The notes below the pieces were generated by a model that saw nothing but the letters and a program-made list of their open reading frames with translations, had not been told where the DNA came from and ran no database searches. Source: Micromonospora parastrephiae (GTDB taxonomy: Bacteria; Actinomycetota; Actinomycetes; Mycobacteriales; Micromonosporaceae). From it: a stretch of DNA of 64,000 bases. Shown piece by piece: positions 31,546-36,297 of this stretch; position 1 is the stretch's first letter; each line of letters opens with the position of its first letter. The position numbers and the translations under genes are program-made. Where the stretch lies: contig NZ_JAEVHM010000002.1 of the NCBI RefSeq assembly GCF_016802865.1, positions 1 to 64,000 on the forward strand, in the 5' to 3' direction.

Positions 31546-31812
31546 TCAGGACGCTTCGCGGACGCGCAGATCGGCCAGCCACACCTCGGCCAGGTCGCTG
31601 AGCGCGACACCGAGGACCTCGCTGAGGCAGACCACGGTGCCGAACGCCGGCGCCGGGAGCCGGCCCACCTCGATCTTGCGGAGCGTCTCCGGCGAGATGC
31701 CGGCCGCCATGGCCACCTCGACCGGGCTGCGGCTGCCTCGCGCGACCCGGAGCGCCGCACCGAGACGTTGCCCCGCTGCGATCTGTTCAGGTGTGAGCGG
31801 TGGGCGAACCAT
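31546..31812 (-). CDS. Small XRE-type helix-turn-helix regulator
   Basis: An 88-residue DNA-binding protein consisting of little more than a Cro/C1-type helix-turn-helix: RLGAALRVARGSRSPVEVAMAAGISPETLRKIEVGRLPAP, then a short helical tail. The ATG at 31812 has only a weak ribosome site. It is divergent from the methionine aminopeptidase gene, with the palindrome GGTATAAATATACC between them, so it probably represses both. Size and layout resemble antitoxin-type or local autoregulators. Confidence 0.82.
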   Translation of the reverse strand: MVRPPLTPEQIAAGQRLGAALRVARGSRSPVEVAMAAGISPETLRKIEVGRLPAPAFGTVVCLSEVLGVALSDLAEVWLADLRVREAS

Positions 31813-31877
31813 GTCAGCAGGATAGATCCGCCTTCTCGGACCGGCAACGCCGACGCGCGGGACCCCCCGATCAGCGT

Positions 31878-31891
31878 GGTATAAATATACC
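31878..31891. promoter_or_regulatory. Palindromic operator/-10 element between XRE gene and MetAP
   Basis: GGTATAAATATACC has perfect 6-bp arms around AA and is strikingly AT-rich for this genome. It lies 24 bp from the MetAP start codon and 66 bp from the XRE start, overlapping what would be the -10 region. A natural site for the XRE regulator. Confidence 0.6.
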
Positions 31892-31914
31892 GCCACGGAG
31901 AGGGAGGGTTGATC

Positions 31915-32733
31915 ATGATCGAGCTCAAATCCGCCGAGGAGATCGGTCGGATGGCCGTGACCGGCCAGTTCGTCGGCGAACTGCTGGCGGAGCTGCGTGA
32001 GGTCGCCGCCGTCGGGGTCAACCTGATGGACCTCGAACACCACGCCCGCCGCCGGATCAAGGAGCGCGGCGCCGAATCCTGCTACTGGGACTACACGCCG
32101 TCGTTCGGCCGCGGCCCGTTCCGCAACGTCCTGTGCCTCTCGGTCAACGACGCCGTGCTGCACGGCCTGCCGCACAGGTACGCCCTGCGCGACGGCGACC
32201 TCCTGAGCATCGACATGGCGGTCGGGATCGACGGCTGGGCCGCCGACTCCGCACTCTCCGTCATCGTCGGCAACCCCACGCCGGACGACCTGAAGCTGAT
32301 CGAGGCCACCGAGGTCGCACTGGAGGCCGGGATCGCCGCCGCCCGACCGGGCAACCAACTCGGCGACATCTCCGCCGCCATCGGCGAGGTCGCCCGCCGC
32401 TACGGCTACCAGGTCAATGACGAGTTCGGCGGGCACGGCATCGGCCGAACCATGCACGAGGCCCCACACGTGCCCAACAACGGCCGCCCCGGCCGGGGCA
32501 TGAAGCTCAAGCCCGGCCTGACGCTCGCGATCGAGCCGTGGTTCTGCCGCAGTACCAATAAGATCAAATTCGATGAGGACGGGTGGACGATCCGGTCCGC
32601 GGACGGCTCGCGGACGGCCCACTCCGAGCACACCGTCGCGGTCACCACCGACGGCCCGCAGGTGCTGACCCGCCGTCCCGGGCACGACACACGGCCGGGC
32701 AACCGCAGCGGGCAGCCGGCCGCGACGTCCTGA
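31915..32733 (+). CDS. map: Type I methionine aminopeptidase
   Basis: A 272-residue type I MetAP. The ATG at 31915 follows GGGAGGG with good spacing; a TTG two codons earlier is possible. Metal ligands are visible: D100 in LLSIDMAVG, D111, H174 in GGHGIG, E207 in LAIEPWF and a last Glu in SEHTVAV; H83 (VLHG) is the substrate-contact histidine. It removes N-terminal methionine from new proteins. The C-terminal 25 residues (Arg/Gly/Gln-rich) are an extension. Actinobacteria usually have another MetAP near the ribosomal genes; this extra copy has its own XRE regulator and palindrome, suggesting conditional expression. Confidence 0.92.
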   Translation: MIELKSAEEIGRMAVTGQFVGELLAELREVAAVGVNLMDLEHHARRRIKERGAESCYWDYTPSFGRGPFRNVLCLSVNDAVLHGLPHRYALRDGDLLSIDMAVGIDGWAADSALSVIVGNPTPDDLKLIEATEVALEAGIAAARPGNQLGDISAAIGEVARRYGYQVNDEFGGHGIGRTMHEAPHVPNNGRPGRGMKLKPGLTLAIEPWFCRSTNKIKFDEDGWTIRSADGSRTAHSEHTVAVTTDGPQVLTRRPGHDTRPGNRSGQPAATS

Positions 32734-32841
32734 CGAGCGCCCCTGGGACCGAGGAACACGTATACATTGGATCGGCTCGGTGAGCTGACCTTTGAGTAAG
32801 CGGCGACAGCCGTTTCCTACTATTTCCGTTCAAATCGGAAA

Positions 32842-33011: not shown

Positions 33012-33716
33012 TCAGGTACCTGTCGGCCGGGTCGGCGCCTGCTGGCGGTGGGCCGGGCTGATCGATCCCTCCAGCGTGCTCCTCGCCGTGGGTGCGGGCA
33101 GTACCAGGCCCGCAGCCGTCTGCTCCAGTTGAGCAAGGAGGTCATCGGCCCACATCGACGTCTCCTGGACCACCGCGCGCGCCGTCGCCGCGACGAGTGC
33201 TTCGACGAGGTGAAAAAACTCCTCCACCTGGTCGGGCGGAGGCGTGTCATGGCCGGCGTTGCGGCTCAACCAGGCCAGGTAGCTGACCCTTATCTCGTTG
33301 AGTTCCGACTGCAACACCGCCTGGGTGTGCATGAAGCGCATCCAGGACGAACTGAATCCGAAGAGTCGATCCGCGAGCAGGAATCCCCCGGCTGAAGCGA
33401 GGAGCACAAACCCCCACTCGGGCGCGGGCATGCCGGCGTTCGCGGCGTGCAGCAGGGGCACCAGTCCGCCGCCCACGCCGAACAGGATGGCCAACCCGCG
33501 GCAGGCCTTCGACCACCTTGAGCGACTGGTCTTGCGCCACAGGTACCAGCGAATGGCCGCTTCCGCTGACGCCTCAGCCCAGCTGAAGACCGCGGCCAGT
33601 CCCTGATAGGTGGCAGCATCCTCCCTGATCCGGGGCAGCGGCGGACCGGTGAAGTTACGCGGGGAGTCTGGGGCCGGCTGCCGGAACCCACCGGCAGCCC
33701 CGTTGGCAGTGCTCAT
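33012..33716 (-). CDS. SLATT-type two-TM membrane protein, probable effector
   Basis: A 234-residue protein started at the ATG at 33716. After a Pro-rich N-terminus, a helix with WAEASAEAAIRWYLWRKTSRSRWSK leads to two membrane segments (about residues 84-103, GLAILFGVGGGLVPLL, and 109-128, WGFVLLASAGGFLLADRLF) and a long amphipathic helix (MHTQAVLQSELNEIRVSYLAWL) followed by another helix. This layout is that of SLATT domains, two-TM effectors known to accompany SMODS and SLOG nucleotide-signalling systems and thought to form pores. It follows the 775-residue nucleotide-domain protein gene by 11 bp and must be co-transcribed. The family match is by pattern, so moderate. Confidence 0.7.
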   Translation of the reverse strand: MSTANGAAGGFRQPAPDSPRNFTGPPLPRIREDAATYQGLAAVFSWAEASAEAAIRWYLWRKTSRSRWSKACRGLAILFGVGGGLVPLLHAANAGMPAPEWGFVLLASAGGFLLADRLFGFSSSWMRFMHTQAVLQSELNEIRVSYLAWLSRNAGHDTPPPDQVEEFFHLVEALVAATARAVVQETSMWADDLLAQLEQTAAGLVLPAPTARSTLEGSISPAHRQQAPTRPTGT

Positions 33717-33727
33717 GCTCGCCGCAC

Positions 33728-36055
33728 CTATCCCTTCATCACCCACCGGCCGCCCGACACCCACTCGGCCCCGAGCTGGACGGCCATCTCCCGCCACTCG
33801 ACCCGGAGGAAGTCGGCGCCTCGCTCACGCCGGTCGCGCAGCAACTTGATGATCGCGAAGTGGTTCGACTGGTTGTGTTCGAGCTCCTGTTCCGCCACGC
33901 CGGTGCTGCCGCAACCGGAGACGATCAATGAGCGGCCGGCGAAGGCCGAGCCCTCGGGCCGTTGCCGGACGGAGGTTTCCCGCAGCTGAGGCTTGTGCTT
34001 GTGGCCGTGCAGGACCAGAGAGAACCCGAGCCGGGACAGGCGTTGCTCGACGATGCCCGCATCTCGCACCGTGGACATGTCCAGCAGCACCTCCTCAGCC
34101 CGGCGCGTTGGTTTCAGAGCCTCCGGGTACGGAAGCAGGTGGTGGTGCATGACGGCGGCCCTGACCGAGTCACCGGCGACATCGTCGAGGAGCTTGGCGA
34201 CACGGCCTAGTTGTTTGAGGCCGATGAACCCGTAGTGGTGCTGGTGGTCCTCGAAGACGCACGAGTTCAGCCCCACGAAGGTGATCGGTCCCCGCTGCTG
34301 CACGGAGACGACCTCACTCGGCTCCGGGCGGTCGTGGCCGACGTGGAAGTCCCACGTCACGAGCGGAAAAATCTTGTAGAACAGCTTCTCCCCGTAGAAG
34401 TCGTGGACGAATGTCAGGTAGTTGTCGAAGCGCTTCTGCGGGCTCGCGCGGGCGACATCCCAGTCGATGTCGTGGTTGCCGGGGACGATGACCACCTGGT
34501 CGTGGGACATGCCCAACCCGCCGCACAGCTCCTCGAGGAAGGTGCGAACCAGCGCGAACTCCTCGGCCTTGCCCGTGTAGACCAGGTCGCCGGACAGGAC
34601 GATCGTGGCGTTCGCCGGATCGCACCCTTCGTGGGTCAATGCCCGCATGAACTCGTCGCGGAGCTCAAGGCTCAGGCGGCGGCAGTTCTCGTCATCGCGG
34701 TACCGGTGCATCTCCCGGCCGCCGGGCCCGCTCGTGCCGAAGTGGACGTCGGAGATGTGGAAGATCAGGTGCTGTTGCTGCTCGGTTCGCCGGTCGGTCG
34801 GAGCGCCACCGCGGCCCTCGTTCCGGGAGGCGCGCACGAGCCAGTCGGAGAGCGCCTCCGCTTCCTCCGGGTAGATCCCGGCCTGGCCCAGCATGCGGAT
34901 CTGCTCGGCGGCGGACTGGGCGTCAGCGGGACGGGCGCCGTTCTTCACCGCGTCCTCCGCCCGAGACCGCGCCCGCTCGAAGTCACCCAGCACCAGGTTC
35001 GCCTCCGCCGCCACCAGGTCGGCCCAGTAGTCGCCGACCAGGTACTCCGTCTCCTCGATATCGGAGCGAAGGCCCTGATACAGCTCCCGCCCCCGCTCGG
35101 GGTGGTCCGGGTCGGCCAGGATGACCATGCCGGCGTGCGCGACTCGCAGATACAAACTCTTGGGCGCCAGGCGCATGGCCTGCTCGTAGTACTCGAGGGC
35201 CTCGGCGTAGCGCTGGAGGCGCTTGACCGTGCCGCCGAGCATGCCGAGTGTCTGCGGATCGTGGGGGTTGAGCTCCAAGGCCCGGTTCAGCTCCCGCAGC
35301 CCGCCTTCGAAGTCCTGGAACTTCCTCAGGTAGAACCCTCGCTGGCGATGGACTTCGTAGTCCCCGTCGGCGGCGGGGTACGCCGCCTCGAGCACCGTCG
35401 CGGCGGTCCCGTAGTCCTCCACCCGCGCCAGCTCGTTGGACAGGGCGAGCAGCCCGGAAACCGGCAGGTTGCGGAACTGCTTGGCCCAGTGCCAGACGGC
35501 GACCAACTGTTCGTCGCGCTTGGCGCGAGCGATCTTGGCTGCGAACTCGCGCTCGAACGCCGCTTGGTCATGCTGGGGGTCGGGGGCGACGCCCAGTTCC
35601 TGGAGGGCGTCCTGGACCGGGTTACGCACGGGCCCGTTCGTGACCGTCAACGCGGACCTGAACCGACGTTCGAACGTCTTGTCGTTGCCGAAATCCCGGT
35701 CGTAGAGCAGGATGCGCTGGCTGGCGATGTCGAACGGAAGCGGCGTCTGCTTCTCCGCGACCAGAATCGTCGCTCCCGGCGAGATCGCCTGCCGAACCCC
35801 GAGCTCGTAGTAGACATTGCTGTTGGGCGCGCTGACGTCCGCGAGCACGATGTCCGCCGCGTAGATCTGCTTGATCGCCTGGTTGGTGATGGTGCCGGCT
35901 TCGACGATCTCGTCGATCCGCAGGACCCGGAAGCCCTCTGCCTCGGCTGTCGGCCGCAGCACTTGGGTATAGAAGGCGTCGAAGTCATGTTCCGTACCAT
36001 CGGTCAGGGACCGCACGCCAAACGGCATGATCACAAAAAGTAGGGGACGCTTCAC
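33728..36055 (-). CDS. NDT/TIR-like domain, TPR, calcineurin-like phosphoesterase fusion
   Basis: A 775-residue protein from the GTG at 36055, placed where the family pattern begins (FVIMPFG at residues 7-13); the ribosome site is weak. Residues 1-140 form a Rossmann-like domain with DIVLADVSAPNSNVYYELG, E84 matching the catalytic Glu of nucleoside 2-deoxyribosyltransferases and related TIR-like domains. Residues about 185-415 are TPR-type helical repeats (ALELNPHDPQTLGMLGG, LEYYEQAMRLAP). Residues 430-775 are a metallophosphoesterase with all motifs: D436xH438, GD489-490, GNHD 526-529, HHH 637-639, GHKH 684-687. No signal or membrane segment. With the SLATT gene 11 bp downstream it resembles a nucleotide-based immune module: sensing or nucleotide cleavage, phosphoesterase control and membrane effector. 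Role is inferred. Confidence 0.8.
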   Translation of the reverse strand: MKRPLLFVIMPFGVRSLTDGTEHDFDAFYTQVLRPTAEAEGFRVLRIDEIVEAGTITNQAIKQIYAADIVLADVSAPNSNVYYELGVRQAISPGATILVAEKQTPLPFDIASQRILLYDRDFGNDKTFERRFRSALTVTNGPVRNPVQDALQELGVAPDPQHDQAAFEREFAAKIARAKRDEQLVAVWHWAKQFRNLPVSGLLALSNELARVEDYGTAATVLEAAYPAADGDYEVHRQRGFYLRKFQDFEGGLRELNRALELNPHDPQTLGMLGGTVKRLQRYAEALEYYEQAMRLAPKSLYLRVAHAGMVILADPDHPERGRELYQGLRSDIEETEYLVGDYWADLVAAEANLVLGDFERARSRAEDAVKNGARPADAQSAAEQIRMLGQAGIYPEEAEALSDWLVRASRNEGRGGAPTDRRTEQQQHLIFHISDVHFGTSGPGGREMHRYRDDENCRRLSLELRDEFMRALTHEGCDPANATIVLSGDLVYTGKAEEFALVRTFLEELCGGLGMSHDQVVIVPGNHDIDWDVARASPQKRFDNYLTFVHDFYGEKLFYKIFPLVTWDFHVGHDRPEPSEVVSVQQRGPITFVGLNSCVFEDHQHHYGFIGLKQLGRVAKLLDDVAGDSVRAAVMHHHLLPYPEALKPTRRAEEVLLDMSTVRDAGIVEQRLSRLGFSLVLHGHKHKPQLRETSVRQRPEGSAFAGRSLIVSGCGSTGVAEQELEHNQSNHFAIIKLLRDRRERGADFLRVEWREMAVQLGAEWVSGGRWVMKG

Positions 36056-36297
36056 CCATTGCAGACTAGTAGGTGGAGTCCCACGGACGGGAGCGGGACT
36101 CCCGCTGTGCAGCGGAGAGCATGAGAGGCCGGTGCACGTGCGAGCCCGTTCGCCGCCGTCGAACACTTCGCGACGCGTGAGTGACCCTGATTCTTAACTC
36201 CGATGTCACCGCCCGATTCCACAGGTGACGTGTCGGTGTCCGCCCGCGGGGGTTGGCTGTCAGTCGTCGCACTTGCCTTGACCAGGAGCTGATCCAC

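Follow-up and report, generated by a model that had tools for sequence, protein, structure and literature searches.

The gene pair and its intergenic region

The window analyzed here, a stretch of 64,000 nucleotides from Micromonospora parastrephiae, carries two divergent genes. The minus-strand gene (31546 to 31812) encodes P0001, an XRE protein of 88 amino acids with a single Cro/CI-type helix-turn-helix (HTH) domain, and the plus-strand gene (31915 to 32733) encodes P0002, a putative type I methionine aminopeptidase (MetAP) of 272 amino acids. Between them lies the palindrome GGTATAAATATACC (31878 to 31891, no strand assigned), formed by two arms, GGTATA and TATACC, around a nonpalindromic AA center. 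We regard it as a candidate operator from its sequence and its conservation in homologous intergenic regions. This layout, with the XRE and MetAP genes diverging from a palindrome, confirmed what the initial annotation had described. In a search allowing up to two mismatches, GGTATAAATATACC was found only at this site on both strands of the window (shuffled mean, 0.02), and the pattern GGTATN4ATACC occurs once in the 6,541,657-base genome, compared to 0 times for the reversed control pattern. An inverted-repeat search of positions 31790 to 31960 with a minimum length of 8 found nothing, since the palindrome arms are only 6 bases long.

Upstream of the XRE gene, the −10 hexamer TATCCT (31819 to 31824, minus strand) stands 6 nt from the ATG and marks a probable leaderless promoter. 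A TANNNT hexamer is placed 6 or 7 nt before the XRE start in 177 of 178 homologous loci, while it appears in 7.8% of mononucleotide-shuffled upstream 16-mers at any spacing from 4 to 9 nt; the XRE transcript is thus most likely leaderless, judging from this spacing. For the MetAP promoter, a consensus scan found no canonical −35/−10 pair. A probable extended −10 element, TGGTATAAA (31877 to 31885, plus strand), lies almost wholly within the candidate operator, so that a protein bound there should exclude RNA polymerase. Of 61 homologous loci with a single operator, 43 have TGGTATA at the operator, and 50 have it by the looser count that accepts any position in the region. A ribosome binding site read from the sequence, GGGAGGG (31902 to 31908, plus strand), precedes the MetAP ATG at 31915. 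The terminator-like hairpin after the MetAP gene (32798 to 32815, plus strand) is weak, with 1 found versus 0.7 expected by chance.

The XRE protein and the accessory MetAP

P0001 matched HTH_31 (PF13560) with 30.9 bits and HTH_3 (PF01381) with 26.9 bits, compared to Pfam gathering cut-offs of 27 and 23, respectively. Its AlphaFold model (pLDDT, 92.8) and structure comparison gave the five-helix CI-type fold, and no ligand or sensor domain was found in the model beyond the five helices. The N terminus reads M-V-R-P-P-L-T. As P0001 is a bare HTH domain whose sole cysteine, Cys62, is not conserved among homologues, the XRE protein is unlikely to bind metal itself, and this candidate function was set aside.

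The assignment of P0002 as a putative type I MetAP comes from its family score and its conserved ligands. It scored 243.4 bits against TIGR00500, above the curated equivalog cut-off of 171.35, and D100, D111, H174, E207, E238, and H83 are each kept in at least 97% of 176 partner MetAPs; we take the first five to be the metal ligands and H83 to be the active-site histidine. The predicted model (pLDDT, 84.4) has the overall type I MetAP fold, with 3TAV as the top match. The genome has three MetAPs, so P0002 is the third rather than the second that the initial annotation had counted, the others being at C346 (43% identity) and C373 (35%). The C346 gene lies downstream of secY and adk, which makes it the usual housekeeping MetAP and P0002 an accessory copy.

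An alignment of the 176 partner MetAPs with the two other copies of the genome revealed a 6-residue insertion before the conserved Cys74 (approximately 32095 to 32112, plus strand), which is missing from these two copies and from 3TAV. The loop before Cys74 is presumably on the S1-pocket side, near the Met-binding pocket, and the insertion could alter specificity or inhibitor sensitivity. Within loop residues 61 to 69 (32095 to 32121), P62, P68, and F69 are kept in at least 97% of the partner MetAPs.

Conservation of the pair and its candidate operator

The comparison included 184 distinct XRE loci, made up of 84 loci from related genomes, 80 named loci, and 25 loci from the class search, minus 5 identical pairs. 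Eleven loci that were duplicates or non-XRE were left out (L001 to L003, L088 to L091, L172, L175, L179, and L200), as were these 5, whose XRE and MetAP were identical, so that the remaining XRE sequences are all distinct. Start codons were set by alignment to residue 1 of P0001 in all loci (ATG, 175; GTG, 9). A MetAP gene is divergently adjacent in 178 of the 184 loci and missing in 6. Because the set was built from the best hits to the query, it is biased toward conservation. Two of the 178 MetAP frames (L065 and L185) are shorter than 200 amino acids.

The initial annotation had suggested looking for the pair and motif across actinobacteria, with a nonconserved palindrome counting against its proposal. 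Both are conserved across Actinomycetes, the palindrome tracks the presence of the XRE gene, and the result favors the proposal: GGTATN4ATACC is present in 112 of the 178 intergenic regions, referred to here as A-type (dinucleotide-shuffled mean, 0.06 of 178), as one copy in 61 loci, two in 47, and three in 4. The other 66 regions, among them those of many Micromonospora and Streptomyces, are B-type. ACCGGKA occurs in 62 of them (mononucleotide-shuffled mean, 0.42; maximum, 3) and a longer palindromic pattern in 46 (shuffled mean, 0), both patterns having been drawn up post hoc from the sequences and compared with shuffles that keep base composition only. The four regions lacking ACCGGKA (L061, L086, L087, and L198) contain CCGGGAT-like pieces.

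The abhydrolase, IclR, and SLATT neighbors in the window had no counterparts in the flanks retrieved for the other loci, apart from an abhydrolase match (34%) at L147. Since these neighbors are not conserved, the conserved unit is the pair with its putative operator rather than the region. Two adjacent genes in the window (33012 to 36166, minus strand) encode a SLATT_2-domain protein (PF18183) and an 812-amino-acid protein. The latter combines a calcineurin-like phosphoesterase domain with TPR repeats and, near its N terminus, matches a TIR effector in PADLOC (E value, 3.3e-9); the two may be an uncharacterized defense-like pair.

The closest named relative of P0001 is at a Micromonospora locus (L092, 97%), and 58 of the 61 genomes of the genus have the XRE gene. 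Within the genus (G000 to G060), genomes have either an A-type or a B-type XRE, with a more divergent one in G060, and two strong XRE matches in one genome were seen in none of the genus searched. This distribution reads like one version displaced by another. In a search of 396 phylum genomes, all matches with E values of <1e-30, among those listed, came from the window's own class, and the best listed match outside it had an E value of 1.2e-13; within the sample searched, the family does not extend beyond Actinomycetes. Seventeen plasmid records carry the family, next to map in the 3 of 3 inspected. A phage origin was considered and rejected, given the absence of matches among 50,697 phage records at an E value of 1e-3. 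A toxin-antitoxin or defense role was likewise rejected: the partner is a MetAP, divergent in nearly all loci, PADLOC gave no match for the XRE or the MetAP protein, and no toxin gene was found in an operon with the XRE gene, although map is in tandem with it in Tsukamurella.

Co-inheritance of operator, XRE, and MetAP

Among 394 sampled genomes of the class, which are not independent of each other, 161 had both the XRE gene and the MetAP clade at an XRE cut-off of 1e-8, 8 had the XRE gene only, 66 the MetAP clade only, and 159 neither. The 169 genomes with an XRE match include five weak ones, above 1e-15 (G116, G118, G333, G388, and G443), that may be other HTH proteins. Furthermore, three of the eight XRE-only genomes have an adjacent MetAP that fell below the cut-off (L235, L236, and L243).

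The candidate operator follows the MetAP gene in these comparisons. Where the XRE gene is unlinked from MetAP (G086, G095, G216, G328, and G099), the distant MetAP keeps the palindrome, exactly in four of five genomes (L221/L231, L232, L222/L229, and L234) and as a near match in G099 (L233). A sixth genome with a MetAP-less XRE locus, G074, has a separate complete pair. In Tsukamurella, where the XRE gene and map are in tandem, the sole palindrome in 6.2 kb lies between the genes and touches the map start; it is immediately before map and not before the XRE gene. Twenty clade MetAPs without the pair were examined, 19 of them drawn from the 66 genomes with the MetAP clade only and the last from G443, where the HTH match is no more than weak. 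None of the 20 had ATACCGGTAT or GGTATN4ATACC within 140 bases upstream. The operator was also absent in 21 of 21 other fetched MetAPs without a neighboring XRE gene. Second clade MetAP copies were seen in G208 (L227), with its own palindrome, and in G300 (L226), without one.

Whole-genome scans of 26 genomes found the palindrome in 17 of 17 A-type genomes, 13 of them only at this locus, and in none of the 3 B-type or 6 XRE-less genomes. One or two extra palindromes occur elsewhere in G004, G047, G067, and G080, while the reversed control gave 0 to 4 per genome. A wider regulon was rejected as a candidate because the pattern occurs once in the genome of the window and the extras in 4 of 17 A-type genomes are comparable with the reversed control.

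At the unlinked XRE locus of G086 (L223), the same-strand neighbor is an Nramp-type metal transporter (PF01566, 99 bits), and a very similar frame, read by eye, lies beside the XRE gene in G095 (L224). Since MetAPs are metal enzymes, this neighbor makes a metal-related signal, or a wider XRE target set in the genus of G086, possible. The evidence for a role in metal stress is mixed, given an XRE protein without conserved cysteine on one side and the Nramp neighbor on the other. The XRE genes at both loci are near TTGTGGACA-like boxes, and a repeated CGGTATTGCTGCCTGT unit lies upstream of the one at L224.

The XRE N terminus

Val2 and Arg3 of the XRE protein are invariant in 184 of 184 loci, a conservation that partly reflects how the loci were chosen, and position 4 takes 13 residues. 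In 84 loci, Val2 is encoded by GTT (26), GTC (48), or GTG (10), and Arg3 by six codons from both the CGN and AGR boxes. Such synonymous change points to selection on the protein and not on the DNA. For most of the more distant HTH matches in the phylum, the alignment starts at residue 10 or beyond, and MVR was absent from the aligned start in the two distant matches read through (L277 and L284).

According to two reports (PMC4745127, PMC1266368), Met is removed by MetAP only when the next residue is no larger than Val. Met-Val is cleavable by MetAP and, in human cells, a poor substrate. Because the XRE protein has no sensor domain, the leading guess for its signal is its own N-terminal processing state, and it might read MetAP activity through a Met-Val-Arg end that is a slow MetAP substrate, an idea we put forward as speculative and rather doubtful. 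While MetAP capacity suffices, Met would be removed, and the Val-Arg arm would grip the operator and keep the accessory MetAP repressed. When capacity drops, through an inhibitor, metal limitation, or fast growth, Met would be retained on the XRE protein; the arm would then misfit the operator, or the protein would be destroyed, and the accessory MetAP would be made. In such a feedback loop, the enzyme would act on its own regulator as a substrate. Two points count against it: XRE copies without a MetAP neighbor (e.g., L085) also keep MVR, and the choice of loci contributes to the apparent constancy of Val2 and Arg3.

Repression and its alternatives

We consider it highly probable that the locus is a dedicated, essentially single-target repressor-operator cassette for the accessory MetAP. 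This reading draws on the pair, the candidate operator and its overlap with a −10-like sequence, the single occurrence of the palindrome in the genome, and its inheritance together with XRE and MetAP, all of which are features of the sequences compared. From these we infer that the XRE protein, made from its probably leaderless promoter, would bind as a dimer to the palindrome, cover the extended −10 element of MetAP, and by this occlusion keep the accessory enzyme repressed until a signal relieves it. The operator-less second MetAP of G300 counts against the cassette. It is very improbable that the palindrome arose by chance or belongs to the promoter alone, with no relation to the XRE protein; its overlap with a −10-like element would fit this view, but it is missing at all 20 clade MetAP promoters examined that lack the pair, is retained in trans, and is unique in the genome. 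The XRE protein could instead be an activator that brings RNA polymerase to the palindrome it binds, with MetAP expressed according to growth phase or development. Divergent placement is common for activators too, and the MetAP promoter has no consensus −35. Additionally, 51 loci have at least two operators, most often spaced 32 bp apart (18 loci), and in 43 of the 51 a −10-like TANNNT hexamer lies between the first two operators (shuffled mean, 5.8). This geometry may fit repression too, less clearly, and activation is also possible there. However, at the 43 of 61 single-operator loci with TGGTATA at the site, a bound protein would block the polymerase, and the tandem Tsukamurella site touches the map start. 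We therefore regard activation as unlikely.

Regarding what might relieve repression, there is an even chance that the XRE protein represses MetAP under a conventional signal, such as a ligand, a partner protein, metal state, or proteolysis, with Val2-Arg3 acting as a DNA-contacting arm. The CI/Cro-class fold agrees with this, as do the MVR ends of XRE copies without a MetAP neighbor, and the Nramp gene beside the XRE gene in G086 hints at metal. The aligned residues of 2OFY chain A, 3 to 84, would fit an N terminus that is mobile without DNA. Nevertheless, the protein has no ligand domain beyond the five helices, and a constant Val at residue 2 is not explained by such a signal itself. A further view, compatible with repression, sees the accessory MetAP as a back-up or resistance form that is switched on when natural inhibitors block the housekeeping enzyme or when that enzyme is without its metal. 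The two further MetAPs of the genome, the distinct loop near the Met pocket in partner MetAPs, and the confinement of the family to Actinomycetes in the sample searched are in line with it, but the XRE gene is not sporadic, being in almost all genomes of the genus, and we hold this view only as a tentative possibility. Replacement of the housekeeping enzyme under stress or inhibitor exposure, raised in the initial annotation, is one of several possible roles.

Relation to known systems and implications

The lambda CI and P22 c2 N-terminal domains, C.AhdI-type controllers, and SinR have the same fold as the XRE protein and differ from it in target. In these families, a small HTH protein acts with a palindrome at a neighboring promoter. 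The closest solved structure is 2OFY, a putative XRE regulator from Rhodococcus of the same family (51 to 56% identity over the domain; E value, 4.6e-20), which aligned with the P0001 model over 82 residues (51% identity; Z score, 14.3; root mean square deviation, 2.0) and shares its MVR N terminus. Since its chain was aligned from residue 3 to 84, its first two residues may not be ordered. The title of the 2OFY entry gives no function or partner, and no paper containing the term 2OFY appeared among the matches listed for the open-licence literature. P0002 shares fold and metal ligands with type I MetAPs (TIGR00500; 3TAV from M. abscessus) and, unlike 3TAV and the other MetAPs of its genome, has the six-residue insertion and a separate locus with its own regulator.

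A regulated MetAP, which the initial annotation had called unusual, has a weak precedent in Bacillus subtilis. There, YflG is likewise a second, nonessential MetAP under a transcription factor, and the yflG promoter was reported to be two-fold more active when the GntR protein YvoA was mutated (PMC1266368). Unlike the XRE protein, YvoA is encoded with N-acetylglucosamine genes, has this two-fold effect, and is not a dedicated neighbor of the MetAP gene. The specific target of fumagillin is the type 2 enzyme MetAP2 (PMC5325365), so that this compound is of questionable use for testing a type 1 MetAP. Among the matches listed for the open-licence literature, no title or abstract opening described an XRE-MetAP pair, an absence that is not proof.

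N-terminal methionine excision is usually seen as constitutive housekeeping, and a seemingly dedicated regulator in 169 of the 394 sampled genomes of the class, five of them by weak matches, suggests that its capacity is adjusted in these bacteria. Even if the XRE protein is not a sensor, the putative operator would provide a defined switch for a family that is widespread and has a crystal structure, and for which no described function was found. If the Met-Val end is indeed the signal, the XRE protein alone would suffice as a simple sensor for an enzyme of co-translational processing, itself a drug target, and it would offer a ready reporter for MetAP inhibition.
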